Shown here one piece after another: positions 49,756 through 63,669 of a stretch of 64,000 nt of DNA; within the stretch, counting starts at the first letter, position 1; every line of letters begins with the position of its first letter. Origin of the DNA: an uncultured Clostridia bacterium (GTDB lineage Bacteria > Bacillota > Clostridia > Christensenellales > UBA1242); assembly GCA_944362545.1 (NCBI GenBank), contig CALVTJ010000003.1:107975-171974 (forward strand). Reading direction: 5' to 3'. A program made the position numbers and the translations under genes. The notes beneath the pieces are model-generated. The model was not told where the DNA came from, searched no databases, and was given only the letters and a program-made list of their open reading frames with translations.

Positions 49756-49795
49756 AAAAAACCGCACAAGGCAGTTCAGCCTTATGCGGTTTTTT
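49756..49795. terminator. Strong bidirectional terminator ending the phage cassette
   Basis: AAAAACCGCACAAGGC pairs with GCCTTATGCGGTTTTT (one mismatch) around a 6-base loop, with T-runs both ways. It is 40 bases after the holin stop and marks the left border of the cassette. Confidence 0.9.
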
Positions 49796-49835
49796 ATTCT
49801 GTATATTTATACAATTTTATGCGTATTTATGCACA

Positions 49836-50186
49836 TTATTTTTGTTTGTTTTCATCAACATTCTCTTCATCTTTTTCTACCAATGGTTCTTCATTTTCAT
49901 TTGTTTTTGAAGAGTTTGATGTGTCAGTTTCTTTTTCAGCCTCCTGAGCATCTTCACTGCTTTCATTGTTTTCATTATCATCGTTTGATGCTCCTGTTGC
50001 CCCCTTCATCGAGACCACTCCAAGCACCATCAAAACACCAGCAACTGACATGATGACATCTTCAACAATTTGGTTTTCAATTTGAAAACCAAAAACCCTG
50101 CCAAGTGCATTCAAAAGCACAATCACAGCACCCGAAAGACTCACCCAAAAACTGTAAGACTGAAATTTTTTAAAGAAGTTCTTCAT
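49836..50186 (-). CDS. Phage holin, phi-LC3/LL-H-like
   Basis: 116 residues. Two hydrophobic segments (about 10-30 and 42-60) with the pattern FWVSLSGAVIVLLNALGRVFGFQIENQIVEDVIMSVAGVLMVLGVV typical in layout of Gram-positive phage holins, then a long acidic Asn/Glu-rich tail (about 65-116). Would form membrane holes for lysis or release. GGAG lies 9 bases before the ATG used. Starts inside the end of the BhlA gene. Confidence 0.75.
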   Translation of the reverse strand: MKNFFKKFQSYSFWVSLSGAVIVLLNALGRVFGFQIENQIVEDVIMSVAGVLMVLGVVSMKGATGASNDDNENNESSEDAQEAEKETDTSNSSKTNENEEPLVEKDEENVDENKQK

Positions 50187-50403
50187 TGTCATCAGCTCCT
50201 TTCAAATATTGTTTAATGTCGGTTATATCTTGTTTGACATCATCCAAAACTTGTAAGCGTGAAGTTAAATCCGAAATGGTTTGTTGATATTTCTCTTCTC
50301 TTTTTGAACTGTCTTTGAGTTGATACACAAACAGCCAAACAAACAAAATTGCAAACACTCCATTGCTGACAATAATGCTTATTATATCATTCCAAACATC
50401 CAT
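50170..50403 (-). CDS. BhlA/UviB-type holin-like protein
   Basis: 77 residues: one N-terminal membrane helix (about 8-28, GVFAILFVWLFVYQL) followed by a charged coiled coil (RLQVLDDVKQDITDIKQYL). This is the BhlA/UviB holin-like layout found near lysis genes and bacteriocins. AAAAGGA lies 8 bases upstream. A 129-base gap separates it from the propeller gene, the only sizeable gap in the cassette. Confidence 0.75.
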   Translation of the reverse strand: MDVWNDIISIIVSNGVFAILFVWLFVYQLKDSSKREEKYQQTISDLTSRLQVLDDVKQDITDIKQYLKGADDNEELL

Positions 50404-50532
50404 TGTCTTTGTCCTTTTGCCATTTTAACAATTTTTTCATTTTTACATAGTCCCCCATTTTATAGAAGAAAGACTTTTTGAAAAATTTGATTTTGTCACA
50501 AAAAATTATTTGTTTAAATTTTATGCAATTTT

Positions 50533-52029
50533 TCATGAAATGACATCAAAAACGATCATCGGCTTGCAAATTTTGCAACATTCGGTATTTGTTTTGAAAG
50601 AAAATTGAAACACTTTTCCGTATACACAGACAGGCAAACGCTGTTGTTTTTCACTGCCGGAAAATGAAAATGTTTTTGTTTCTTCATCTGATTTTATCTC
50701 CACCTGACAGTCATAAAGAGTTTCAAGGATAATTTCCTTCACCCTTTTGCGTTTAAATCGAAATTCTAAATCTGTCTCGAAAGATTGCCAACTTTTTTGA
50801 TTTATACCTGTAAAAATTTTTCCACTAAAATCAAGTTCACCAATGTGCTGTTTAAAGTTGTTGTAAAAGCAAGCACACAACTTGCTCATGTAAGGATTGT
50901 CAATTGCCAGCAATTTTCTTATGTCAACACCACGCAAAACATTTAGGTCAAAAGTTTCAATGTCAACCTCAAACAAAACATTGTTGACATGGCTTGCACT
51001 TTCACATCCAATGCTTGCACCATCATCAAAGTGACATTTCGTGGCAAAATAATATTTTCCATTAAGGCACGCCGAAGAGCAATTTGTGTTGTCGCAATTT
51101 TTGAAGTATTTATCAAGATTTACCGCCACCTTGTTTACACTTGTGCCATTGAAAGAATAAAGTCCATCGCGTGTCACAAAAAAGATTTTATCTCCGCAAA
51201 CGCAAACGGAGTTCTCAAAAATTTTTGATGAAGAAGTGTAGAGATGTGTAAATGAAAAATCATCTTTGTTTGTGTAAATTGAAAGTTTGGTTATACCATT
51301 TTCTCTGAATAAATATACATAATCATTAAACCCAACAAGTTTGGTAAAAGCACCACGATTGTCCAAAAATTCCACCGTTGAGTTTTCCTCATCTGACCAT
51401 TTGGTTAAGTCCAAATTTTTGGTGTAGATGAGAGTGTTTCGGTTTGTGTTTGTGATTCCAAAGAAATTATCATAGTGCACAACACTTGAAATAAGTGGTG
51501 GCACTTCTTCGCAGAATTTGTCTTGATAAGCAGCAAGAAAAAGCATTCCACCTTCAGTGAAAAAGAGTGTGCAGTCGGTGTTTTCAATGCGATAAGAACA
51601 CTGATAAATTGGCGGATAATCAAGATAACTGTATCTTTCATAGACAAAGCCGTTGTCTTCATCAATAAGTGTTATCCCCCAAATTACATAATTTGAATCC
51701 ATCATAAGCAAATTGTAAATATATGTTTCATAGTCGGTGTTATACCACCTATCGGACCAAATGTTTGTGATTTCATCAATCTTTTCGCCAAAGTTAAAGC
51801 CATGAAGGGTTTCAAGGTCGCTTGTCGAAGCTGGCACTTGCAAATCATGAAAGCCCAGCCCCGTTTTCAGCGCCCCATCACTGATAGAAAGATTGTAAAA
51901 TTGTTTACATTCATTTGGTTTCGAAATCAAATCATCTTGATTTGACACAACACCATTTGCAAAGATAGAAAACACAACATCCTTTTCTTCCGTCTTTTTA
52001 TGCTTTTTTATGTTTTTATAAAAAATCAA
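50533..52029 (-). CDS. gp10-like tail hub / DNA-plug beta-propeller protein
   Basis: About 498 residues, mostly short beta-strand repeats with aromatic turns (LIYTKNLDLTKWSD, KIFFVTRDGLYSFNG, GKYYFATKCHF), like a beta-propeller. Size, position after the gp4-like adaptor and repeat style match P22 gp10, which plugs the portal after packaging. Rich in Cys in the second half (CVCGD, NCDNTNCSSAC). The chosen TTG overlaps the adaptor stop (TTGA) with AAGGAG upstream. Identity is by layout, so moderate. Confidence 0.6.
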   Translation of the reverse strand: MIFYKNIKKHKKTEEKDVVFSIFANGVVSNQDDLISKPNECKQFYNLSISDGALKTGLGFHDLQVPASTSDLETLHGFNFGEKIDEITNIWSDRWYNTDYETYIYNLLMMDSNYVIWGITLIDEDNGFVYERYSYLDYPPIYQCSYRIENTDCTLFFTEGGMLFLAAYQDKFCEEVPPLISSVVHYDNFFGITNTNRNTLIYTKNLDLTKWSDEENSTVEFLDNRGAFTKLVGFNDYVYLFRENGITKLSIYTNKDDFSFTHLYTSSSKIFENSVCVCGDKIFFVTRDGLYSFNGTSVNKVAVNLDKYFKNCDNTNCSSACLNGKYYFATKCHFDDGASIGCESASHVNNVLFEVDIETFDLNVLRGVDIRKLLAIDNPYMSKLCACFYNNFKQHIGELDFSGKIFTGINQKSWQSFETDLEFRFKRKRVKEIILETLYDCQVEIKSDEETKTFSFSGSEKQQRLPVCVYGKVFQFSFKTNTECCKICKPMIVFDVIS

Positions 52030-52589
52030 AGCCAACTCCTTTTCGGCAAAATATGTTCACCACGCTTTCTGCTCAAAACGAACAAACTCTGCTTAAAGCG
52101 TTCTTCCCAAATGTCAGCATCATCACTTAGCCCATCAATCAACAAAAATTCACTTGCCACGCCATAGGCATAAACTCTGGCACTCAATCCATTCAAGACT
52201 TCCACTTCATCATTCAAAGTTTTGTCTTGTGGAAGATAACTGTAGGTCACATTTTTTGCATGTCCAAAAACTTCCACAAAATCCGGAAAGAGTTTAAACT
52301 TCAAATTCATGCCAAAGCGGTTTTTGATTTCGTAGATGTTTATCACGGTTTTGGAAAGTTGTGAAAAATTTAGAATGCTGTCGTTGATATCAACTTCTTC
52401 TTTGGTTAAAAACGGCAAATAGTCACTTGCAATCTCTTGATTTACAAGATTGAAACACCTAACCATGCTGTCAACCTTCTCTTGTTCTCGCTCTGTTAAT
52501 TCTCCTTGCGGTGAAGCATCGAATTTTGACAAAATCTCTCTTTCTCCAACAAATTCACAAACCAATTTGATTATATCTTTAACTATCAT
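52026..52589 (-). CDS. gp4-like head-tail adaptor
   Basis: About 187 residues. N-terminal helical segment MIVKDIIKLVCEFVGEREIL, then acidic helices and a short beta part (FPDFVEVFGHAKNVTYSYLP), typical in order and size for the adaptor that docks on a portal (P22 gp4 has 166 residues). AAGGAG lies 6 bases before this ATG. Overlaps the preceding gene by 11 bases. Confidence 0.6.
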   Translation of the reverse strand: MIVKDIIKLVCEFVGEREILSKFDASPQGELTEREQEKVDSMVRCFNLVNQEIASDYLPFLTKEEVDINDSILNFSQLSKTVINIYEIKNRFGMNLKFKLFPDFVEVFGHAKNVTYSYLPQDKTLNDEVEVLNGLSARVYAYGVASEFLLIDGLSDDADIWEERFKQSLFVLSRKRGEHILPKRSWL

Positions 52590-52896
52590 ACAATTTCTCC
52601 TTAAAGTCATCCAAAACTTCTTTGATTTTCTTCTTTTCAAGTTTTGCATTTTCTCGTTCCATTTCTTCAAACAGTTTGTCACTATTCTGCACCCTGGTTT
52701 TTAAGGTTAACAAATAAGCACGCTCATCAAGTTGTGAAAACGGAAAAGTTAGGCAATAAGAATATCTTTGTGCACGATTATGCAGTTCAAATTTCTGTTT
52801 TTTCGGATTGAAAACGACAAAATAATCTTTGTCAATTGCCTTTATTCGCTTGATTATGTCAAGACAATCACTTTCAATTTCAAATGACTTTTTCAT
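52579..52896 (-). CDS. Conserved small phage protein, unknown
   Basis: About 105 residues. The middle VFNPKKQKFELHNRAQRYSYCLTFPF is seen in small proteins between coat and adaptor genes of Clostridia phages (from memory), and the C-terminal half is a charged helix (EEMERENAKLEKKKIKEV). Role unknown. AAAGGA lies upstream of the ATG used. Confidence 0.6.
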   Translation of the reverse strand: MKKSFEIESDCLDIIKRIKAIDKDYFVVFNPKKQKFELHNRAQRYSYCLTFPFSQLDERAYLLTLKTRVQNSDKLFEEMERENAKLEKKKIKEVLDDFKEKLYDS

Positions 52897-52923
52897 AGAG
52901 TTTTCCTTTTGGTATTCCAAAAA

Positions 52924-54096
52924 TTAGTCGCCTGAAGGCACTGTTGTTGGAATGTTTTTGCAATAAGCCACACCAGATGGTTTTTGGCAAATAAGTTCTG
53001 TGTATTTTACAAGTGTTGCACTGTAAGAAGCATAGTTTGGATTTTGTTTAAGCACTCTGCCTGCTTCATCTTCCAACCACTTCCAATCACCAAGTTCATA
53101 GAACACAAAATCATCCGTGTTCAAGAAATAGCACTCGCCACTTGCAAGATGATTTGTTGGAACAAGCGGAATTCCAAAGTGTGTTATCACTCTTGTTCCA
53201 TCTTCAAGAGTTGCGTATTCCACATTTTTGCTGTAAAGTGTCATATATTTGTGATACAAACGCTTCAAATCATATGAGCAGTTGATGAAGTTTACATCTG
53301 TGCCTGATTTCTCAAGGTCATCAATAATTTTTTGCACATACTCTTCATCAAATGCATCGGTTGATGTTCCAGTGTATGTCTTGGCATTCATCACAGGATA
53401 ATCCTTTCTTGTCACTCCATAGAGTGTTGCATTTGACACAATGCCTTTAAGTCCAATAATTTCGTTGTTCATTGAAGCATGAAGGTAAACCTTAAATCCT
53501 GTTGCTGGAGTGATAAGATCCGACAATGTCCAATCTATTACTCCTGTTGTCTTGTCTACATTTTTGACATATATGCTGGTTTGCTTGACAATTCCCTCAG
53601 CATCATAAAGGTCAACATACATTCCTGGAACAATTGCTTCGGTGTTGTCAACTGTCACAGTTTCACCGGATACGGTCAGAGTTGCAAGGCAACCCGTTCC
53701 ATCACCATAAATCATGCGTGAAAGATTGAAGATGCTGGCGTGAAGCAAACTGTCCATTCCATCCTGCAAAAGATTTACAAACGAATTTACATCGCTTGAA
53801 GAACATCTGACAGCCTTGTCACTGATTTCAAATCTTCCATAAAGGTTTTTGAGTGGTGCAACAAATGACAAATATGGTGTATCTCTTCCAACAGGAAGTT
53901 CGCTAGTTTCTTCTCCTGCCATAATTCCGCCATTGATGCCGATTGGTGCAACAACTCTAATTTCTTTTCCTACAATGTTTCTTGTGCTTCTTCTAATTTT
54001 GCTGAAAAGCGGATTTGTTTTGGTGTTTATCTGGTCGGCAATAACGCCAAGATAGACATCTTTAAGCACATTTTCCGCACTTGCTAATGTTATCAT
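52924..54096 (-). CDS. Major capsid (coat) protein, HK97-fold
   Basis: 390 residues. N-terminal arm with MITLASAENVLKDVYLGVIADQIN, then YLSFVAPLKNLYGRFEISDKAVRCS and a GDGTG loop, an inserted beta domain (about 140-210), and a C-terminal P-domain-like half with the HFGIPLVPTNHL motif. This matches podo- and siphovirus coats of the HK97 fold with an extra insertion. AAAGGAG upstream; follows the scaffold gene. Confidence 0.8.
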   Translation of the reverse strand: MITLASAENVLKDVYLGVIADQINTKTNPLFSKIRRSTRNIVGKEIRVVAPIGINGGIMAGEETSELPVGRDTPYLSFVAPLKNLYGRFEISDKAVRCSSSDVNSFVNLLQDGMDSLLHASIFNLSRMIYGDGTGCLATLTVSGETVTVDNTEAIVPGMYVDLYDAEGIVKQTSIYVKNVDKTTGVIDWTLSDLITPATGFKVYLHASMNNEIIGLKGIVSNATLYGVTRKDYPVMNAKTYTGTSTDAFDEEYVQKIIDDLEKSGTDVNFINCSYDLKRLYHKYMTLYSKNVEYATLEDGTRVITHFGIPLVPTNHLASGECYFLNTDDFVFYELGDWKWLEDEAGRVLKQNPNYASYSATLVKYTELICQKPSGVAYCKNIPTTVPSGD

Positions 54097-54111
54097 TTTT
54101 TCTCCTTTTGT

Positions 54112-54777
54112 TTATGAAAGCAAGTCAAGAACAATCTTTTTTGCTTGTTCAAAACTATCTGGTTTTGGGGTAACCGGTTTGGTCACCCTTTCACCAGAGT
54201 TTGAGGACATCACAATTGGAGTTTTCTGTTCTTGAAGTTGTTTCATATAATCTTCGATTATCAAATTTTTCAAATCTTTGTCTTTCAAAATCATATCTTT
54301 GACAAGAGGTTCTTTGGCTCGGTTTGGTGATGAAAGTTTTTCAAACAACATCTGCGACCAAACTTTGTCAAAACAATTCTCATCATTTTTAAGACTTTCG
54401 TTTTGATTTATGCGGGATTTGAGTTCTTCCGCATACAAAACCGCCTCCTGATTTTTTGAAAGGAACGCCTTCAACTTGTCATCAAAACTTGTGTCCGATG
54501 GTGCTGATTGCGTTTTTTCTTTCTCCATTTCAGCAAGTCTTTGGCTTTTGCGTGTGAATTCTGCTTGAAGATTTTGATAAGCAGTCACAAGGTCATCTAC
54601 ACTTTTAAATTTTCCTGCGGGAACGCCCCTTTCTGCTTCACCTTTGCTCTTGTCATCACCCTCTTGCAAAATTTCATTTGAGGAGCCATTCACATTCTCT
54701 TCCGCCTGTGGCATAACGCTGTCAATGGTCGAGTTAATGTTTTGTGGTTGTTCCTCATGTCTTATGTTTTCTTCCAT
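54112..54777 (-). CDS. Capsid scaffolding protein
   Basis: About 221 residues, highly charged and helical. Contains GKFKSVDDLVTAYQNLQAEFTRKSQRLAE, typical in phage scaffolds, and a basic, helix-rich C-terminus that usually binds coat. Position between portal and coat is standard. AAAGGAG before ATG; starts right after the portal stop. Confidence 0.8.
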   Translation of the reverse strand: MEENIRHEEQPQNINSTIDSVMPQAEENVNGSSNEILQEGDDKSKGEAERGVPAGKFKSVDDLVTAYQNLQAEFTRKSQRLAEMEKEKTQSAPSDTSFDDKLKAFLSKNQEAVLYAEELKSRINQNESLKNDENCFDKVWSQMLFEKLSSPNRAKEPLVKDMILKDKDLKNLIIEDYMKQLQEQKTPIVMSSNSGERVTKPVTPKPDSFEQAKKIVLDLLS

Positions 54778-54778
54778 G

Positions 54779-56641
54779 TTATTCTCCTTTCTGTTCCACC
54801 TTTTCAAGTGCATCTTTGTGCGCTCTTATGTGTTGCAAAAAGATATTTTCAACCTTTTTATCAACATCCTTTGAATAAATTACTTTGAGCATATATGCTA
54901 TGTGTTGGTTGATGTGCAATGAGTGGTCATCAATCTCTTTGACTTCCACCATATCACAACTTGCCATTTTGGCATTTTCGCTGTCGGCATTTTTGATGTG
55001 CAAATCACTCAAATCCACCGAATAATCCCAAATACCAAAACCAAGATTTTCCATAATTTTGGACTTCATAGATTTTGAAATTTTTCCATCTTCATCTGCA
55101 AGCAGTCCTTTGTCCAAAAGTGTGAAAATCATCTGTCTGCGTTGTGAGAGTGTGTCATTGCTTTCATTGTCAGTGTCAAACTGAACATCATCGCTTGAAA
55201 TGTCACTACCCTTAAAATAAAAAGTATCAAGCTCACCATTTGTCCCAACAATCTTTTCAATGCGCGGAAATGTAGCAAACTGTCTGTAAAGTCTCAAGAT
55301 ATGCTTTGCAATGCTTTTGATGGCTTCTTTTATGCTGTCAGTGGTAAACACAAGTCGTGTTTCATTTTCATCAATGATTAGTTCCAGTGTCACACCACTC
55401 AAACTCGATGAAAGGTTTTCCATGTTTCCAAGCACACTTGTTCCGCTCAAAGTGGAAAACTCATCAAGCAGTTTGTCCTCTTCTTTTTCAAAATCGGTTG
55501 GCAACTGTTCTCCATCCAAAAATTGTGGTGCATTTGAGCCCTGTCTGTAAACCAAAATTTTACCTGGAGCAAGTCCTTCTTCTTCCAAGTTGTCAATGTC
55601 AACACTGCCATCTTCGACTGCAAGAACCCCCATGGTCAAGCGATTGAGATATTCCTGTTTTCGATTTTTGACCGCATTGTAAGCCCTTTGGATTGGTATC
55701 AAACGATTTATCATGCTGACTCCCCAAAAAGAACCGAGTTGACTGCTACAAATCTGTCTTATAAAAGGAAATTCTCTCTTGCCATCTACACCATTGACAT
55801 AAGGCATTTGCCCATCATACACCAATGTATCACCAGCAATAATAATCAATCTTCCATCTGGATATTCAGCATTTGGTCTTACATACTTTTCCAAAACAAT
55901 GGCGCTGTTTTTTCTCACTGTTTCAATCAAACTTGAAGAATATCCGCCATAGCCAAGTCCACCAAGCGATGAAGTCACACCATCAAGTGAGTAGACATTG
56001 ATGTCTTTGCCTTCAACATCCACACCATACATCTGTTTGATTTGCTCGATTGTGTAGGCTCTGGCATGAATTATACTTTGGCACTCCTGCAAACTCTCAT
56101 GTGTCGAAGAATCTGGATAAATCTCAAATGGTGAACATACCGAGATTTCCACTTCTCCTGTTTTGATTTTGCTTCCATCATCTTCAAGGGCCACCACCTG
56201 ACCAAGATTGGAGTTCCATGAGATTTTATAAAAACTCGTTCCGCAAATTTCACTCCACTTTGTTGCTTGGTTAATTTTTTCCGATAGATTCATTCGATTT
56301 GAAACAGAATCCAAAATTTTCTTTCCAACTTTTGCCGTGTAAATATCCTGTTCATCATCTGTTGCTGGCACAATCTGCATTTTTGGCTTAACCTTTGAAA
56401 GTTTTGAAAGCCTTATGTCAATGAGCGGTGCAATATGGTTGAACACTTCTCTTTCCTGCCAAAAGAATTGCTTGTCCACCTCTCTAACAAAACCGCCATA
56501 TCCAATATCACAATATTGGTTGCCCATGTAAAAATTCATGTTCAGTTGCCATTGGCTATCAAAACTCTTTCTCTCTCTAACTCTGTTTTCAAAGTCATCA
56601 AGTGTTTCTTTGACCAGAGTGTCAATCTTCTTTTCTCTCAT
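54779..56641 (-). CDS. Podovirus-type portal protein
   Basis: 620 residues. N-terminal helix region with FYMGNQYCDIGYGG, HIAPLIDIRLSKLSKVKPKMQIVPA, EICGTSFYKISWNSN and a stem-like middle, similar to P22-type or crAss-like portals rather than short SPP1 types. Twelve copies would form the ring for DNA entry and exit. The frame is fully intact; AAGGAGCG lies upstream. Confidence 0.8.
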   Translation of the reverse strand: MREKKIDTLVKETLDDFENRVRERKSFDSQWQLNMNFYMGNQYCDIGYGGFVREVDKQFFWQEREVFNHIAPLIDIRLSKLSKVKPKMQIVPATDDEQDIYTAKVGKKILDSVSNRMNLSEKINQATKWSEICGTSFYKISWNSNLGQVVALEDDGSKIKTGEVEISVCSPFEIYPDSSTHESLQECQSIIHARAYTIEQIKQMYGVDVEGKDINVYSLDGVTSSLGGLGYGGYSSSLIETVRKNSAIVLEKYVRPNAEYPDGRLIIIAGDTLVYDGQMPYVNGVDGKREFPFIRQICSSQLGSFWGVSMINRLIPIQRAYNAVKNRKQEYLNRLTMGVLAVEDGSVDIDNLEEEGLAPGKILVYRQGSNAPQFLDGEQLPTDFEKEEDKLLDEFSTLSGTSVLGNMENLSSSLSGVTLELIIDENETRLVFTTDSIKEAIKSIAKHILRLYRQFATFPRIEKIVGTNGELDTFYFKGSDISSDDVQFDTDNESNDTLSQRRQMIFTLLDKGLLADEDGKISKSMKSKIMENLGFGIWDYSVDLSDLHIKNADSENAKMASCDMVEVKEIDDHSLHINQHIAYMLKVIYSKDVDKKVENIFLQHIRAHKDALEKVEQKGE

Positions 56642-56856
56642 GTTCGCTCCTTTTTCTCTCTTTTGCGTTTAAATGGTGGTTCAACAGCTTTCGGGACACA
56701 AACCTTTGAAAAACATTCAAACATCTTTTTCATGCAATCTTCACAAAACACCAAATCCTTTCTTATAAATCCCTTGGTGCTGAAACTGTATTTTGCCATG
56801 TTTTTACAGCCGTAGAAGTCGCATTTGAGTTGGTTTTTACAGATTTCCATTTTCAT
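56638..56856 (-). CDS. Small zinc-ribbon-like protein
   Basis: 72 residues with seven Cys: CDFYGC, CEDC and others spaced like a zinc ribbon, then a basic tail (PPFKRKREKKERT). Might bind DNA or RNA. AAGGAG lies before the ATG. It overlaps the preceding gene by 20 bases and the portal by 4. Confidence 0.6.
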   Translation of the reverse strand: MKMEICKNQLKCDFYGCKNMAKYSFSTKGFIRKDLVFCEDCMKKMFECFSKVCVPKAVEPPFKRKREKKERT

Positions 56857-57190
56857 CTTCTTTCTCCTTTTCTTTCAAAAGTTGCAAAAGTCTTTCCTTT
56901 TCATGCAATAACTGTTCATCTGTCATCTTGGAAATTTCATCATCAGCAAGATTTTCTTTTTCAAGCAAAAATCGCAGTGCATTGATGTCTGGCGGATTAA
57001 ACTTTTTTGTCACCTTCCGCTTTGACAAAATCGGTTTGCCATTTTCATCCGGCACATATTCTTCGACAATTTCATCACTGACAAAGCCTAACGCCCGCTT
57101 GACCAATGCCTTTTTTATGTCTTTCTCATCCACAATTTCCACCTTTTTTTGCAACTTTTGTCCACATTTTAAAATGCAAAAATCTGTCAT
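56837..57190 (-). CDS. Small-terminase-related fragment
   Basis: 117 residues. KKALVKRALGFVSDEIVEEYVPDENGKP and VTKKFNPPDINALRFLL resemble the C-terminal half of Firmicutes small-terminase-type proteins (ALGY...PPDTTA..F.L). The usual N-terminal helix-turn-helix is absent, and the C-terminus is a Lys/Glu coiled coil. It opens the cassette and has no ribosome site; a TATTTT lies 5 bases before ATG, so it may be leaderless. Function uncertain. Confidence 0.5.
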   Translation of the reverse strand: MTDFCILKCGQKLQKKVEIVDEKDIKKALVKRALGFVSDEIVEEYVPDENGKPILSKRKVTKKFNPPDINALRFLLEKENLADDEISKMTDEQLLHEKERLLQLLKEKEKEDENGNL

Positions 57191-57277
57191 TCAACAAAAT
57201 ATGCCAAAATTTTGGCTACGCGTGGAAAATTCACAAATTTTAATCAAGAAAATAGAATGTAATTGTAGAGGAGAAAA

Positions 57278-60572: not shown

Positions 60573-63500
60573 TTATATTCTTATACTTTCGCTCAATGTT
60601 GTAGCAAAGCGAACACCAAACATGTTGTCAAGCCAACTCGATGTGTCCATGCCGGCAGATGTGATTATCTTTCCATTGCCAAGATTTGTGCCTAGTGTGC
60701 GTGTCCAATAGTTTGCATATTCATCTCTGCCTATGCCTAGCAAGAAGCAAACCATGTCACTTGCATATGCTCTGATATCTTCAAAACTTTCTTCTATCTC
60801 ATCCACACTTGCCACTCTTAAACCATTCTCTGTTCTGCTTACAGTGGTCACCTTGTCTTGTTGCCCGGCATTGCCAAATTTATAATATTTCACACTTGTG
60901 TTGGTGTCATATTCAAGATTAGCATATGCACTTGCACTGTTTGTGTTGGAAATGGACACATTTGAAAACAGTTCACTTGATGTAAATGCCCAACCTTCAC
61001 TGACAGTTTGATTTGTCACCGCACTTGCCATAAGCACCCTGTCACTGACCACAGTAAAGTTTGTCTTGTAGGAACCATATGCATCCCATCCATCTGGATA
61101 GTCTGTGCTTGACACTCCATATTCACTCACTCGCCACCTAATTGGCTCAACTTTAAAGAAATAATAATGTCCACTTGTAAAGTCTACACTCCCAACACTT
61201 GTTTGAATTGTCATTGTTTTGCTTGCCGTAAGGCGTGCATACCTTTCGCCATTATATGAATAAATAGGTATTGAAACATTTGTCGTGCCGTTGAAATATG
61301 AGATTGACTCATTTGCTGATGTTGCAGCACCTATCAATGTGCTATTTAGACTATCCCCCACATAACTTTGTGGATACTCGCCATCTTCAAAATACCAATA
61401 CTTATCCGTGCTGTCATACTTTAAACGGTTTGCAGAAACTTTTTTGAAATATGCATAGACTGTATAACTCACATCTTGATCTGGTGGTGTAAATGTTGTT
61501 ATCAATGTCTCTTCGGTTATTCCACTTGAAGATGTCGAAACTCCAATAAAAGCATAACTTGCATTGTCTCCACTGCCCGTTGTTGCGTGTCCTGTGAATC
61601 TAATTACCCTGTCTGTAAACGGTGTGTATGTCAAAGCAACTAAACTTGATGAGTTTACTATTTGCGTGTATGATGTTGACGAATTGTTATTATCTCGATA
61701 ATATGTCACAGTCACATATCCACCCGCATTTGAACTTTCCCATGTTGTGCCGTCAGTCGAAGTTTTTATCTGCACTTTCACTGTCGATGTAATCGGCGTC
61801 CAGTCGGCATATAGCGTAAGATTGGCGTTTGTCGAATATGACTCACCATTGTTGTAATGTGTACCTGTTCCACTTGAATTTGTGTTCCAACCATTTGCTG
61901 TGTAATATGTTCTTGTCAAAGAATTGCTACCAAGTGCAGCATCTGTGTTATGTATTTTATACGGTGTGCCTGGTGTCGTTCCAGAGCCATTGTTTTTGTT
62001 GTATGTGATTGTGTATCGCTGGTATATATAAATGTTGATTTGAGAATTTGCGGTCGGCTTCCATGAGTAAGAATATGAATCGCTTGAACTGTCAAACAGA
62101 TATGTGTATGATGAAGTTGTTGGAGCACTTCCTATTCTCATGTAATAATCATAACTTGCATCATTTGTCAAACTTATTTTCACCGAAACAGTGGATGTGG
62201 TGTAAGTGTGGCTGACTTTGACAGTGTCTTCACTGCTTGGATAACCAACTGACGAACCGCTTTCATAGGCAATCGTGCAACCTGATGCCGACACAGTAAA
62301 ATCGGTTTCATTTGTCTGTCCTTTGCCCGCATAATAAAGCGTCAATGTGTAGGTGTTTGCCTGCCAATGTGCAGTAAATGTCACTGTTTCTGAATCTGAA
62401 TTAAGATTAATAAAATATGTTGCTTTAACATAAGAACCATTATCCATCCAATGTGTCGTCACATTGCTAGATGAAGTCCCATACTTCGCATATACAACTT
62501 CACTATATCCAGTCTTCCAGTAATCAATATTGGAGGCAGACCAACCCATAAATGTATAACCTGTGCGAGATGGATTAGAAATCCTAACAACAGTATCATA
62601 TACTGCACTTGAAGGAGCATAAGTTCCAGAACTTCCACCACTATAATTATAATCAATATAATAAGTCGATGGAGTTTCCACACTAAACAATTCAATATCC
62701 TTATTTACTGATGAAGCACTGTATGAAACAGTGACTCCTAAACCCCATGTGTAATTGCCATCCTTAATATTTTTCGTTGTAGAAAAACCAACTGGTATAT
62801 ACCCAATGGTGTGCATAGTGATTGAACTTGGACTTGTTGTCGAGACACTAACACCTGCCAGCATATCAACCTTTTTAATTATATAATCATCATCATTACT
62901 ATCAGTAGACTTAAAAAATTTAAGGTCATATTCTCTTCGCAATTTCACATAAATAGTACAACTTGAAATCTGTGAACCAACAGAACTAGCACTTGGAGCG
63001 CTTGTTGATGTTCTAACAGTTGATGATGATGAGCCTCCATAAAAATAAGCATAACTATAACTTGATGTATAACTTGAATTTGACCATGACGAACTTGTAG
63101 ATATTCCACAAATGGCAAAACCATTCAAAGCAGATATTTTTGCTCGCCTTTTGTTTGAACCCAAAGAATAAAAGTTGTATGAAAAGTAAGAACAATCAGC
63201 AGTCCCATTATTATCATTGATAACAGCAGTTGAATTTTTTGATTTGCCAGTGTTTCCCCAATCATAATTTGTTCCATTCTCGTTTTGCCACTGGATATGC
63301 AGATAATTTGTTCCCGTTTGAGTTGACGCAGTTGTACATGTTCCACTGTCTGTTTTATACTGTGCAATTACAGTAAAAGTATAGTCTGTTGCCCACAAGT
63401 TGGCTTCAATATCGCCTTCATTTTCATTATCTTCGCCAGCATTTCCTTCATTTTCGTCATTGTCCGTATTTCCACCCTGATTGTCGTCAGATTTATCAGC

Positions 63501-63669
63501 ATTTTCGGTTTTATCGCTGTCATCAGTCGGATTTTCTACTTCAACGGAGTCTGAAATCCCCCCCGCTTTGTTCTGTGCTCGTGCCACAGGATGACAAAAG
63601 AAGAGTTCCACCTCCAATCACAGTGAACCCACACAAAATCATTAAGATAACCGTAATTACCTTTTTCAT
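60573..63669 (-). CDS. Large repeat-rich surface lipoprotein, frameshifted at a G7 tract
   Basis: About 1031 residues if read through the shift. The 5' part encodes a lipoprotein signal (MKKVITVILMILCGFTVIGG...LLSSCG). After 28-35 codons a run of seven G (63558-63564) breaks the frame; with six G the signal would join an acidic linker (Asp/Glu/Asn-rich) and then the body. The body has Ser/Tyr/Thr-rich beta domains, InlB/Listeria-type repeats (SRTGYTFMGW, NLTLYADW), and a C-terminal DUF6273-like module (EPIRWRV, YWTRTLG). Probable adhesin. Either phase-variable or an assembly/sequencing error. Confidence 0.7.

Follow-up and report, generated by a model that had tools for sequence, protein, structure and literature searches.

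Few groups have well-documented gene transfer agents (GTAs), and a podovirus-like one was first reported in 2026 (PMC12946183). This system, FpGTA of Faecalibacterium, has a podovirus-like operon with a small terminase (TerS) without obvious DNA-binding domain, a large terminase (TerL), portal, scaffold and capsid, and its operon I was present in 12 of the 12 Faecalibacterium genomes that its authors examined (Borodovich et al. 2026, PMC12946183). A holin gene is also described, the host belongs to the gut Clostridia, and in one strain the parts are divided between two loci with about 125 kb between them (PMC12946183). The locus studied here bears a likeness to FpGTA in all these features. The same work found GTA-like packaging in Christensenellaceae (HGM11616 and QANA01, 3 of 25 events), and its accessible text names no GTA genes for them (PMC12946183). 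A TerS without the DNA-binding N-terminal part has been proposed as a hallmark of GTAs (PMC6854486, PMC11841831).

Here we analyse a phage-derived cassette from an uncultured Clostridia bacterium. The window, the whole stretch of 64,000 nucleotides that was analysed, is C3:107975-171974 of the genome's contig. The cassette lies inside it, flanked by an ABC transporter and polA. Judged by its genes, it is probably one half of a GTA, a domesticated short-tailed phage particle that is kept by the host.

Gene content of the cassette

The cassette consists of ten open genes, encoding a TerS-like protein, the cysteine-rich p72, the portal, a scaffold-like protein, the capsid, p113, an adaptor-like protein, a plug-like protein and two holins. 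Every frame is open and the genes are coupled, as a sequence-only reading of this DNA had stated; they all lie on the minus strand. The features are listed below in window positions.

49759..49777, minus strand: terminator-like hairpin at the cassette end (sequence scan)
49836..50192, minus strand: holin A (Phage_holin_1 type), 118 aa (PF04531, E 3.2e-5; phrog_297 holin, 4.5e-12)
50170..50403, minus strand: holin B (BhlA type), 77 aa (PF10960, E 2.8e-18)
50533..52035, minus strand: plug/nozzle-like virion protein, 500 aa (phrog_3287 virion structural, 1.5e-5)
52026..52589, minus strand: head-tail adaptor-like protein, 187 aa, start corrected (position between p113 and plug)
52579..52920, minus strand: p113, small conserved protein downstream of the capsid gene, no assigned function (conservation)
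52924..54096, minus strand: major capsid protein, 390 aa (phrog_14242 major head protein, 5.9e-44)
54112..54777 (listed ORF from 54813), minus strand: scaffold-like charged protein (position between portal and capsid)
54779..56641, minus strand: portal protein, 620 aa (PF16510 P22_portal, 7.9e-19; phrog_156, 1.3e-36)
56638..56856, minus strand: p72, small cysteine-rich protein (sequence; 41 of 41 close loci with room)
56837..57190, minus strand: terminase small subunit core (TerS), 117 aa (phrog_309 family matches; hhalign)

Phage-derived head, portal and packaging genes of the kind that a GTA carries are present and intact. The portal, coat and holins named by the sequence-only reading are borne out by family matches (PF16510, phrog_14242, PF10960 and PF04531). 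Its adaptor and plug-like genes are also intact, but their identities are tentative labels based on position and weak profile matches. Among the aligned relatives of the plug, 15 of 37 match phrog_3287 (best 8.8e-20), and the plug profile matches 7z47_G, a 'Surface protein', in the PDB (E 0.003). The adaptor has a confident predicted structure (pLDDT 88.8); none of 38 relatives in its family has a PHROG match, and PDB profile searches gave nothing for the capsid or the adaptor. No convincing family match is found for the scaffold-like protein in the PHROG and Pfam scans. Its gene is kept in every one of the 41 close loci that have room for it, and so is p113, which is also found in many clusters of other families. 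By reading of its sequence, p72 appears zinc-finger-like. The single terminator proposed for the cassette end corresponds to a terminator-like site at 49777-49759, which is weak evidence alone, with eight such minus-strand sites in the region against 5.2 expected from shuffles.

The adaptor most likely starts at 52589 and not at 52682, because in close loci every in-frame stop of that frame falls within the first 31 residues. The scaffold and p113 frames probably start some codons later than listed; in close loci their stops are found only up to residues 11 and 8, respectively.

Conservation in the genus and the order

Nearly every species of the genus has kept the cassette set, and it is also present in many families of the order. 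The portal is found in 104 of 112 genus genomes, TerL in 105 and both in 100. Forty-three loci with a portal at least 54% identical, assigned to the genus by that criterion, are taken as close loci. All ten genes are present in the 41 that have room for them, and no stop is observed in the body of any cassette gene in the 43, so the frame disruption that would have spoken against a kept particle is not seen. Internal stops were counted initially in five genes (adaptor, scaffold, TerS, p113 and holin A); all of them precede the likely start, except for those near the end of TerS (residue 115 of 117) and in the final part of holin A (residues 92-100 of 118). The position of the cassette, which the earlier reading proposed to compare among relatives, is also kept: the ABC transporter is directly upstream in 39 of 39 close loci and polA lies within 3 kb in 26 of 34. 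A complete prophage bearing the cassette is not seen in the loci of close relatives that were read, where the flanks were compared with the window's genes.

In other families of the order one contiguous cluster is observed, running from a regulator, an SH3 protein, TerL, TerS and the portal to the holins; in genome G054 (family f19) polA is again its neighbour. Among the carriers of the contiguous cluster is a cultured strain, Anaerocaecibacter muris CLA-AA-M11 (locus L075). Matches in Clostridia outside the order also exist. A few genomes have two portal matches, most of which are pieces of one gene. Where loss has occurred, the cassette is either missing or visibly disrupted (G064, G050). 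In G064, which is 100% complete, TerL, portal and capsid are all absent and no close orthologue of the ABC ATPase is found.

Inheritance and selection

The portal and PolA trees share 9 of 23 splits (null mean 0.32, maximum 3), and their distances give a Mantel r of 0.70, with 0 of 2000 permutations as high. The two trees are concordant far beyond chance, yet only in part. The comparison covers 26 of 30 genomes, leaving out G065, G298 and G066 (PolA in two pieces) and G078 (portal locus not entered). These 30 were picked for having TerL, and the presence of the portal in 30 of 30 is for that reason co-occurrence and not prevalence. PolA is not a fully independent marker in some of the genomes compared because it adjoins the cluster there.

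The dN/dS test suggested by the sequence-only reading gives 0.03-0.06 for the portal, 0.05-0.08 for the plug and 0.04-0.07 for polA in the seven closest pairs; portal and plug are on a par with polA, and capsid, scaffold and holin A evolve faster than polA in close pairs as well. Over all pairs with dS 0.2-1.5 the medians are 0.27 for the plug, 0.22 for the capsid, 0.13 for polA and 0.11 for the portal. Both comparisons leave out sequences that have an internal stop under automatic start choice. The vertical inheritance and purifying selection expected of a GTA are observed, with partial tree agreement and dS often saturated. The descent of the cassette appears largely vertical.

Terminase subunits

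The sequence-only reading described a cassette with no packaging motor. This holds only locally. An intact, solitary TerL is found at C3:12330-13760, about 144 kb away on the same contig, in the genome search for a large terminase that the reading had called for. It matches PF03237 (E 5.8e-18) and solved large terminases in a PDB profile search (best 4.4e-15). GGNR[ST]GKTE, DEEPP, D289, D351 and D437 are invariant in 11 TerL, and none of 30 TerL has a stop in its body. Its dN/dS has a median of 0.15 over 24 pairs and is 0.037 in the closest pair. Strong TerL matches number 243, which is 313 minus 70 rows with E above 1e-60. A sigma-70-region-4/Q-like gene adjoins TerL. No convincing common promoter motif is found upstream of TerS (44 sequences) and TerL (34 sequences).

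Nineteen genomes of the genus have TerL and portal on a single contig, at distances of 6-152 kb: 6-9 kb in six, 32-55 kb in seven and more than 100 kb in six, the window's genome included. The P22 head holds about 44 kb of DNA, and the gap of more than 100 kb is beyond the capacity of a podovirus head. At such a distance the gene set could not be packaged or moved as a unit, as expected of a GTA; this is firm only for the group above 100 kb, because the verdict depends on head size.

The short TerS family matches phrog_309 TerS in 22 of 26 members (best 1.6e-7). By hhalign (probability 97.2) it aligns with the TerS of genome G069, a protein of 177 aa, over residues 76-173 of the latter, and it is without the N-terminal part of its longer relatives. 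Fewer than 50 residues precede the TerS core in 128 of 138 loci, and there is room for 50 or more in 10; only loci with an upstream stop in view are counted, some genomes twice. By analogy, we infer that the missing part is the DNA-binding domain.

Tail region, flanks and phage relatives

A coiled-coil tail-region protein (DUF7934, PF25588) is conserved in other families and absent from the window's cassette. A profile search covered 37 genomes, of which 23 belong to the genus. Eight of these 23 give matches, all short and weak (E 6.6e-4 to 6.8e-6), and those in G005, G015 and G020 are to the C-terminal part and lie near the cassette. In a sister subgroup a frame of 94-101 aa replaces this protein between plug and holin B (6 of 8 loci); the two loci looked at in the window's subgroup have no such frame there. 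The variable fibre-like genes of other families are missing from the cassette, and no tailspike or endolysin is found in it or in the scanned flanks.

A Pfam scan of ten flanking proteins gives seven host-type matches and three proteins without match. No terminase, integrase, lysin or repressor is found among these ten, which agrees with the sequence-only reading for the neighbourhood. The integrase, repressor and phage replication genes that stand beside the structural genes of a prophage are not seen in the cassette and the ten flanking proteins.

The nearest isolated phages are 22-27% identical for portal and capsid, and by this measure the cassette has no close relative among them. Among the matches listed, the only related provirus is an IMG/VR record of 34.8 kb that matches G069. 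It encodes a replication initiator, a fibre of the collagen type and a TerS of 194 aa; no integrase is identified in it. It belongs to another family and is 23-54% identical per gene. The short TerS does not align significantly to its TerS (probability 8).

A probable split gene transfer agent and its alternatives

The best reading of these genes is a podovirus-derived, largely vertically inherited GTA that is split in the genus and resembles FpGTA. Of the three options of the sequence-only reading, the evidence backs the GTA-like carrier whose terminase lies elsewhere. An ancestral contiguous cluster would have been split in the window's lineage. Upon some signal, the sigma/Q-like regulator beside TerL may turn the genes on. 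Portal, scaffold and capsid would form a small procapsid, and the short TerS, no longer able to pick a phage start site, would steer TerL, which would cut host DNA and fill the heads headful by headful. Adaptor and plug would seal the head, the holins would help cell lysis, and the particle would take random host fragments to relatives. We infer DNA packaging and transfer by the particle from its gene set, and members of these lineages may be capable of sending fragments of their own DNA from cell to cell.

PBSX has a long tail, and no long-tail gene is seen in the cassette. It is unlikely, though worth weighing, that the particle works like PBSX, packaging host DNA but delivering none and being kept for killing or deterring relatives or for useful lysis. 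Holins in all of the 41 close loci that have room and tail-region genes reduced or absent in the genus would suit such a role. However, killing needs no packaging motor under constraint, and a ComEC family protein is present in the window's genome, ComEC being part of the DNA uptake route in RcGTA recipients. PBSX acts as a tailocin, and the FpGTA authors leave the same question open for Faecalibacterium (PMC12946183). A DNA-free capsid or nanocompartment, in which nucleic acid is never packaged, is very improbable: TerL does not adjoin the capsid genes in the window, but 100 of 112 genus genomes have both TerL and portal, the two form part of one contiguous cluster in other families, and the TerL motifs are kept at low dN/dS.

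The same co-occurrence speaks against a phage satellite that uses a helper's terminase, which we find scarcely credible. The terminase lies apart from the structural genes in the window, as a satellite would have it, but a satellite lacks its own large terminase and this genome has an intact one, together with a TerS core in the cassette. Furthermore, the cassette occurs in nearly every species of the genus, the close loci occupy a single position on the ABC side, and among the ten flanking proteins neither an integrase nor a phage replication protein is seen, but only host-type PolA and RuvX. An ordinary decaying prophage, or a temperate podovirus family acquired repeatedly, is highly unlikely. 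The 34.8 kb provirus and the few genomes with two portal matches could point that way; the provirus is only 23-54% identical per gene, and the cassette is nearly always single-copy, keeps its position, is intact in all 43 close loci, agrees for the most part with the host tree, and is missing or visibly broken where it has been lost. Empty capsid, satellite, decaying prophage and repeated acquisition are ranked low and poorly supported.

Several observations weigh against a GTA: tail-region genes are reduced or absent, fibre-like genes are missing, the portal and PolA trees agree only in part, plug and capsid exceed polA in median dN/dS over all pairs, and G064 is without TerL, portal and capsid.

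A wider scenario has, in our estimate, an even chance. An ancient podovirus would have been domesticated close to the root of a large clade within the Clostridia order and inherited since as a GTA with its own regulator and membrane SH3 protein. The genome-reduced (about 0.9 Mb) genus would have shed tail-region genes, and TerL would have drifted from the head genes with both halves kept. This GTA would account for the packaging of random host DNA that was reported for Christensenellaceae in viromes of human faeces.

If the GTA reading is true, gene exchange or DNA repair by a domesticated phage would be a basic trait of these gut Clostridia. The cluster is kept even in genomes below 1 Mb, where much dispensable DNA is gone. 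Candidate genes are supplied for packaging already seen in human faecal viromes, and the ten-gene set with the short TerS provides a sequence signature for finding such systems. It is also a warning that dozens of catalogued 'viral' contigs are probably fragments of a host-kept cluster.

Comparison with known systems

The portal matches P22_portal above the cut-off and there are sub-threshold matches to SU10_portal and SU10_MCP, a likeness to the heads of P22/SU10-type podoviruses. The present set differs from them in being host-kept, with a shortened TerS and no phage replication or integration genes beside the cassette. RcGTA of Rhodobacter capsulatus and CcGTA of Caulobacter belong to Alphaproteobacteria and have siphovirus-like tails, and to our knowledge their head genes have no known relation to those of the cassette. 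They are similar in consisting of host-kept phage-derived genes at several loci (PMC6854486), and their regulation (PMC11150451) can be set beside the sigma-70-region-4/Q-like gene next to TerL. PBSX of Bacillus subtilis is likewise a GTA-like element of a Gram-positive, but differs in its tailocin action (PMC12946183); no such tail is seen in the cassette. FpGTA belongs to another lineage, and is likened here by its described gene content. Its split separates a head and packaging locus from a fibre/lysis locus (PMC12946183), whereas here TerL is separated from the head genes. FpGTA particles have been shown, about 40 nm in size and with about 9 kb of DNA (PMC12946183), whereas the present system is known from its genes.

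Organisation of the head-gene cassette

The host genome of the window (G000; 927,123 bases, nine contigs), in which the window occupies C3:107975-171974, carries a cassette of phage-like head, connector and holin genes with the following organisation.

57190 to 49836, minus strand: ten genes in open frames, overlapping or closely spaced, in the order 117-aa protein, 72-aa cysteine-rich protein (p72), portal, scaffold-like protein, major capsid, p113, adaptor-like protein, plug-like protein and two holins
49777-49759: terminator-like hairpin, 3' of the cassette
Flanks: host-type genes for pseudouridine synthase, DUF1292, RuvX, DNA polymerase I, an ABC ATPase, an ABC permease and a repeat-bearing surface protein

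Clear family matches are found for the portal, the capsid and both holins; the names of the adaptor and scaffold rest on gene position only. The plug gives a weak match in the PDB profile search, and 15 of its 37 aligned relatives match virion-structural PHROGs (best 8.8e-20). Seven of the ten flanking proteins have host-type Pfam matches and three have none. A short divergent promoter region at 57191-57277 precedes the small terminase (TerS) gene and shows good conservation among the close loci, which are 43 loci with a portal at least 54% identical and are taken as the window's genus. It holds a TTTTGGCATAA-like stretch, and a dedicated promoter is possible. The surface-type proteins at window 60573-63617 and L032:5974-6927 share one part at about 70% identity, and a Listeria-Bacteroides repeat is present in the former.

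The large and small terminases

The sequence-only reading had described this cassette as one with no packaging motor. A Terminase_6N family search of the same genome shows that this is true only of the cassette's surroundings. It finds a single place, C3:12486-13136, within a complete large terminase (TerL) gene on the same contig (C3), with about 144 kb between it and the nearer end of the cassette.

C3:12330-13760: TerL, open frame of 476 aa containing the Terminase_6N match
Beside TerL, divergent: SH3-domain protein gene, with a signal peptide and terminal membrane segment as read from the sequence
Beside TerL: regulator gene, sigma-70 region 4 match (4.6e-6)

The regulator also matches phage Q-antiterminators, more weakly than sigma-70 region 4. 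GGNR[ST]GKTE, DEEPP and aspartates 289, 351 and 437 of TerL, which we take to be ATPase and nuclease residues, are invariant in 11 homologues.

The 117-aa protein matches phrog_309 (TerS) at positions 196-244 of 319 only (E 0.0036), and 22 of 26 homologues across the order match the same profile (best 1.6e-7). It aligns with residues 76-173 of the 177-aa TerS of genome G069 (probability 97.2%), and the N-terminal part of the latter has no counterpart in it. Fewer than 50 residues precede the TerS core in 128 of 138 loci, counted from the furthest possible start. The 117-aa protein is thus predicted to be a small terminase of the GTA (gene transfer agent) type. A related provirus located in G069 encodes a TerS of 194 aa with a phrog_4102 match (8.2e-20) and a helix-turn-helix as read from the sequence; compared by hhalign, this protein does not reliably resemble the short TerS (probability 8).

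Gene order and separation of the motor gene

The cluster of other families is usually contiguous, with some genes undetected in some clusters. Its order is regulator, SH3 gene (opposite strand), TerL, TerS, p72, portal, scaffold and capsid, followed by p113, adaptor, plug, a coiled-coil protein or variable genes, and holins. In the close group, the next gene ahead of TerS belongs to an ABC transporter at 39 of 39 loci with that side visible. polA is found within 3 kb after the cassette at 26 of 34 loci, and the eight exceptions are one subgroup (portal 54-58% identical). The cluster of G054 (L117, family f19) also ends beside polA. This is a hint that the location is ancient and common to both families; it may be older than their divergence. 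In G003, G018, G023 and G033, the transporter block separates the portal from TerL, which is 6-7 kb upstream. In the 19 genomes where a single contig carries TerL and portal, their distance is 6-9 kb in six, 32-55 kb in seven and 105-152 kb in six. The most economical history has the transporter block inserting between TerL and TerS, with rearrangement afterwards. A single podovirus-sized particle cannot hold halves more than 100 kb apart, though both are kept.

The coiled-coil protein is absent from the window cassette, and 94-101 residues of it are left in six of eight sister-subgroup loci. This remnant is the C-terminal part and matches the coiled-coil profile in three genomes. The 94-101-aa frame is that of L066, L067 and L069-L072, where it follows the plug gene and precedes holin B, the site that the coiled-coil protein has in other families.

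Selection and descent

Each of the 41 close loci that have room for it carries the full set of ten cassette genes. No stops are found across the 43 close loci in portal, capsid, p72, plug (42 seen) or holin B (41 seen); those in the remaining cassette frames precede the probable start codon or lie in the final part of TerS or holin A. The earlier observation that every frame is open extends to gene bodies throughout the close loci. TerL is free of stops in 30 of 30. Portals in two pieces or cut are found elsewhere in the genus (G018, G842, G815, G814 and G850).

In the dN/dS comparison proposed earlier, portal (0.03-0.06) and plug (0.05-0.08) are close to polA (0.04-0.07) in the seven pairs with the most similar polA. 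The rate of change of capsid, scaffold and holin A is higher than that of polA. Medians over all pairs with dS 0.2-1.5, where dS is near saturation, are 0.11 for portal, 0.27 for plug, 0.22 for capsid and 0.13 for polA. For TerL, a set of 24 pairs gives a median of 0.15. The capsid (window 52924-54096 and close loci) is only about 45% identical in the subgroup with portal identity of 65-69%, by either faster evolution or exchange. For the pair L054/L055, polA dS is 0.32, far under the values near 1.0-1.6 of several neighbouring genes, which suggests recent recombination at polA.

Portal and PolA trees (FastTree, 26 genomes) have 9 of 23 splits in common, against a mean of 0.32 and a maximum of 3 in 500 relabellings. 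The Mantel r is 0.70, with 0 of 2000 permutations as high. The PolA tree is not fully independent there, because polA adjoins the cluster in some genomes (among them the window's genome G000, G033 and G054).

Distribution and loss

Portal is found in 104 and TerL in 105 of 112 genus genomes, and both in 100, some partial at contig ends. With completeness of 90% or more and contamination of 5% or less required, 72 genomes remain, and each of the two genes is found in 69 of them. G030, G064 and G841 have neither; G836 has no portal and a weak TerL match (2.4e-15). G064, a genome of this genus in 8 contigs with a completeness rating of 100%, lacks portal, TerL and capsid, and the neighbouring ABC ATPase has no close orthologue there. 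This is a real, natural loss of the system, and the system is thus not essential. Lost systems decay, as in G050, with three stops in TerL and a capsid match down to 41 residues.

Of 396 genomes sampled across the order, 313 have some TerL match. The match is strong (E 1e-60 or better) in 243 of them, from 18 families; the remaining 70 have weak matches that probably belong to other phages. In the class, 26 of 391 genomes have a hit to the capsid alignment, and 12 of the 26 are outside the order. Related capsid genes lie amid host genes at L368 (G576) and L373 (G755), from other families of the class, with neither TerL nor portal within the stretch fetched. The recognised genes of G755 are scaffold-like and capsid only, and serC, with frames as read, adjoins the cluster in G576 and lies about 5 kb off in G755. 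These two loci are possibly other split domesticated heads. A genome titled Roseburia (L076, JAMPDA010000008.1) bears this order's cluster; its label may be wrong.

Relatives among phages and virus catalogues

A search of 50,697 phage records gave 12 matches for the portal and 13 for the capsid, with identities of 22-27% throughout; TerL had 483 matches, with up to 30% among the 25 listed. The capsid also matched 46 IMG/VR loci. Many of these contigs (L248-L292) look like host-kept cluster fragments filed as viruses, because 42 of the 45 loci listed carry a TerS homologue of the cassette's family.

The important exception is L287, a provirus record of 34.8 kb that corresponds to sequence in G069. 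It has a replication initiator, a collagen-type fibre and a phage-type TerS; an integrase was not identified in its gene content. It is related to the cluster's ancestor, at 23-54% identity per gene. G069 holds both a cluster with the longer TerS (L203) and this related provirus (L204/L287), a possible before-and-after pair for domestication. The coiled-coil protein of L203 has a LysM-like start.

Proposed mechanism and comparison with known systems

Gene content, conservation, the separation of TerL, the short TerS and the complete TerL are established by sequence. The window's system is largely vertically inherited, podovirus-derived and GTA-like, with the motor gene separated from the head genes in the genus. 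From these features we infer a GTA function. The regulator would drive expression of the particle genes, and a procapsid would assemble on the scaffold. Host DNA would be packaged non-specifically, headful by headful, and adaptor and plug would close the head. The holins may assist cell lysis, and the particle would deliver DNA to relatives. Delivery is the least certain step, because the coiled-coil protein is absent from the window cassette and cut to 94-101 residues in most sister-subgroup loci. No tail spike, fibre or endolysin was recognised among the cassette genes. The window's genome encodes a ComEC family protein, and ComEC is part of a DNA-uptake route.

A report of this cluster was not found in the open-licence literature. 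In the parts consulted of one study (PMC12946183), GTA-like packaging is reported for Christensenellaceae, with the genes unnamed there; the order of the window is probably Christensenellales of GTDB. The same parts describe FpGTA of Faecalibacterium, which is podovirus-like, lies in two loci about 125 kb apart, has a TerS without an obvious DNA-binding domain and forms particles of 40 nm that contain about 9 kb of DNA (PMC12946183). On that description FpGTA is the closest described system to the window's; its particles have been seen, whereas the window's system is known from its genes.
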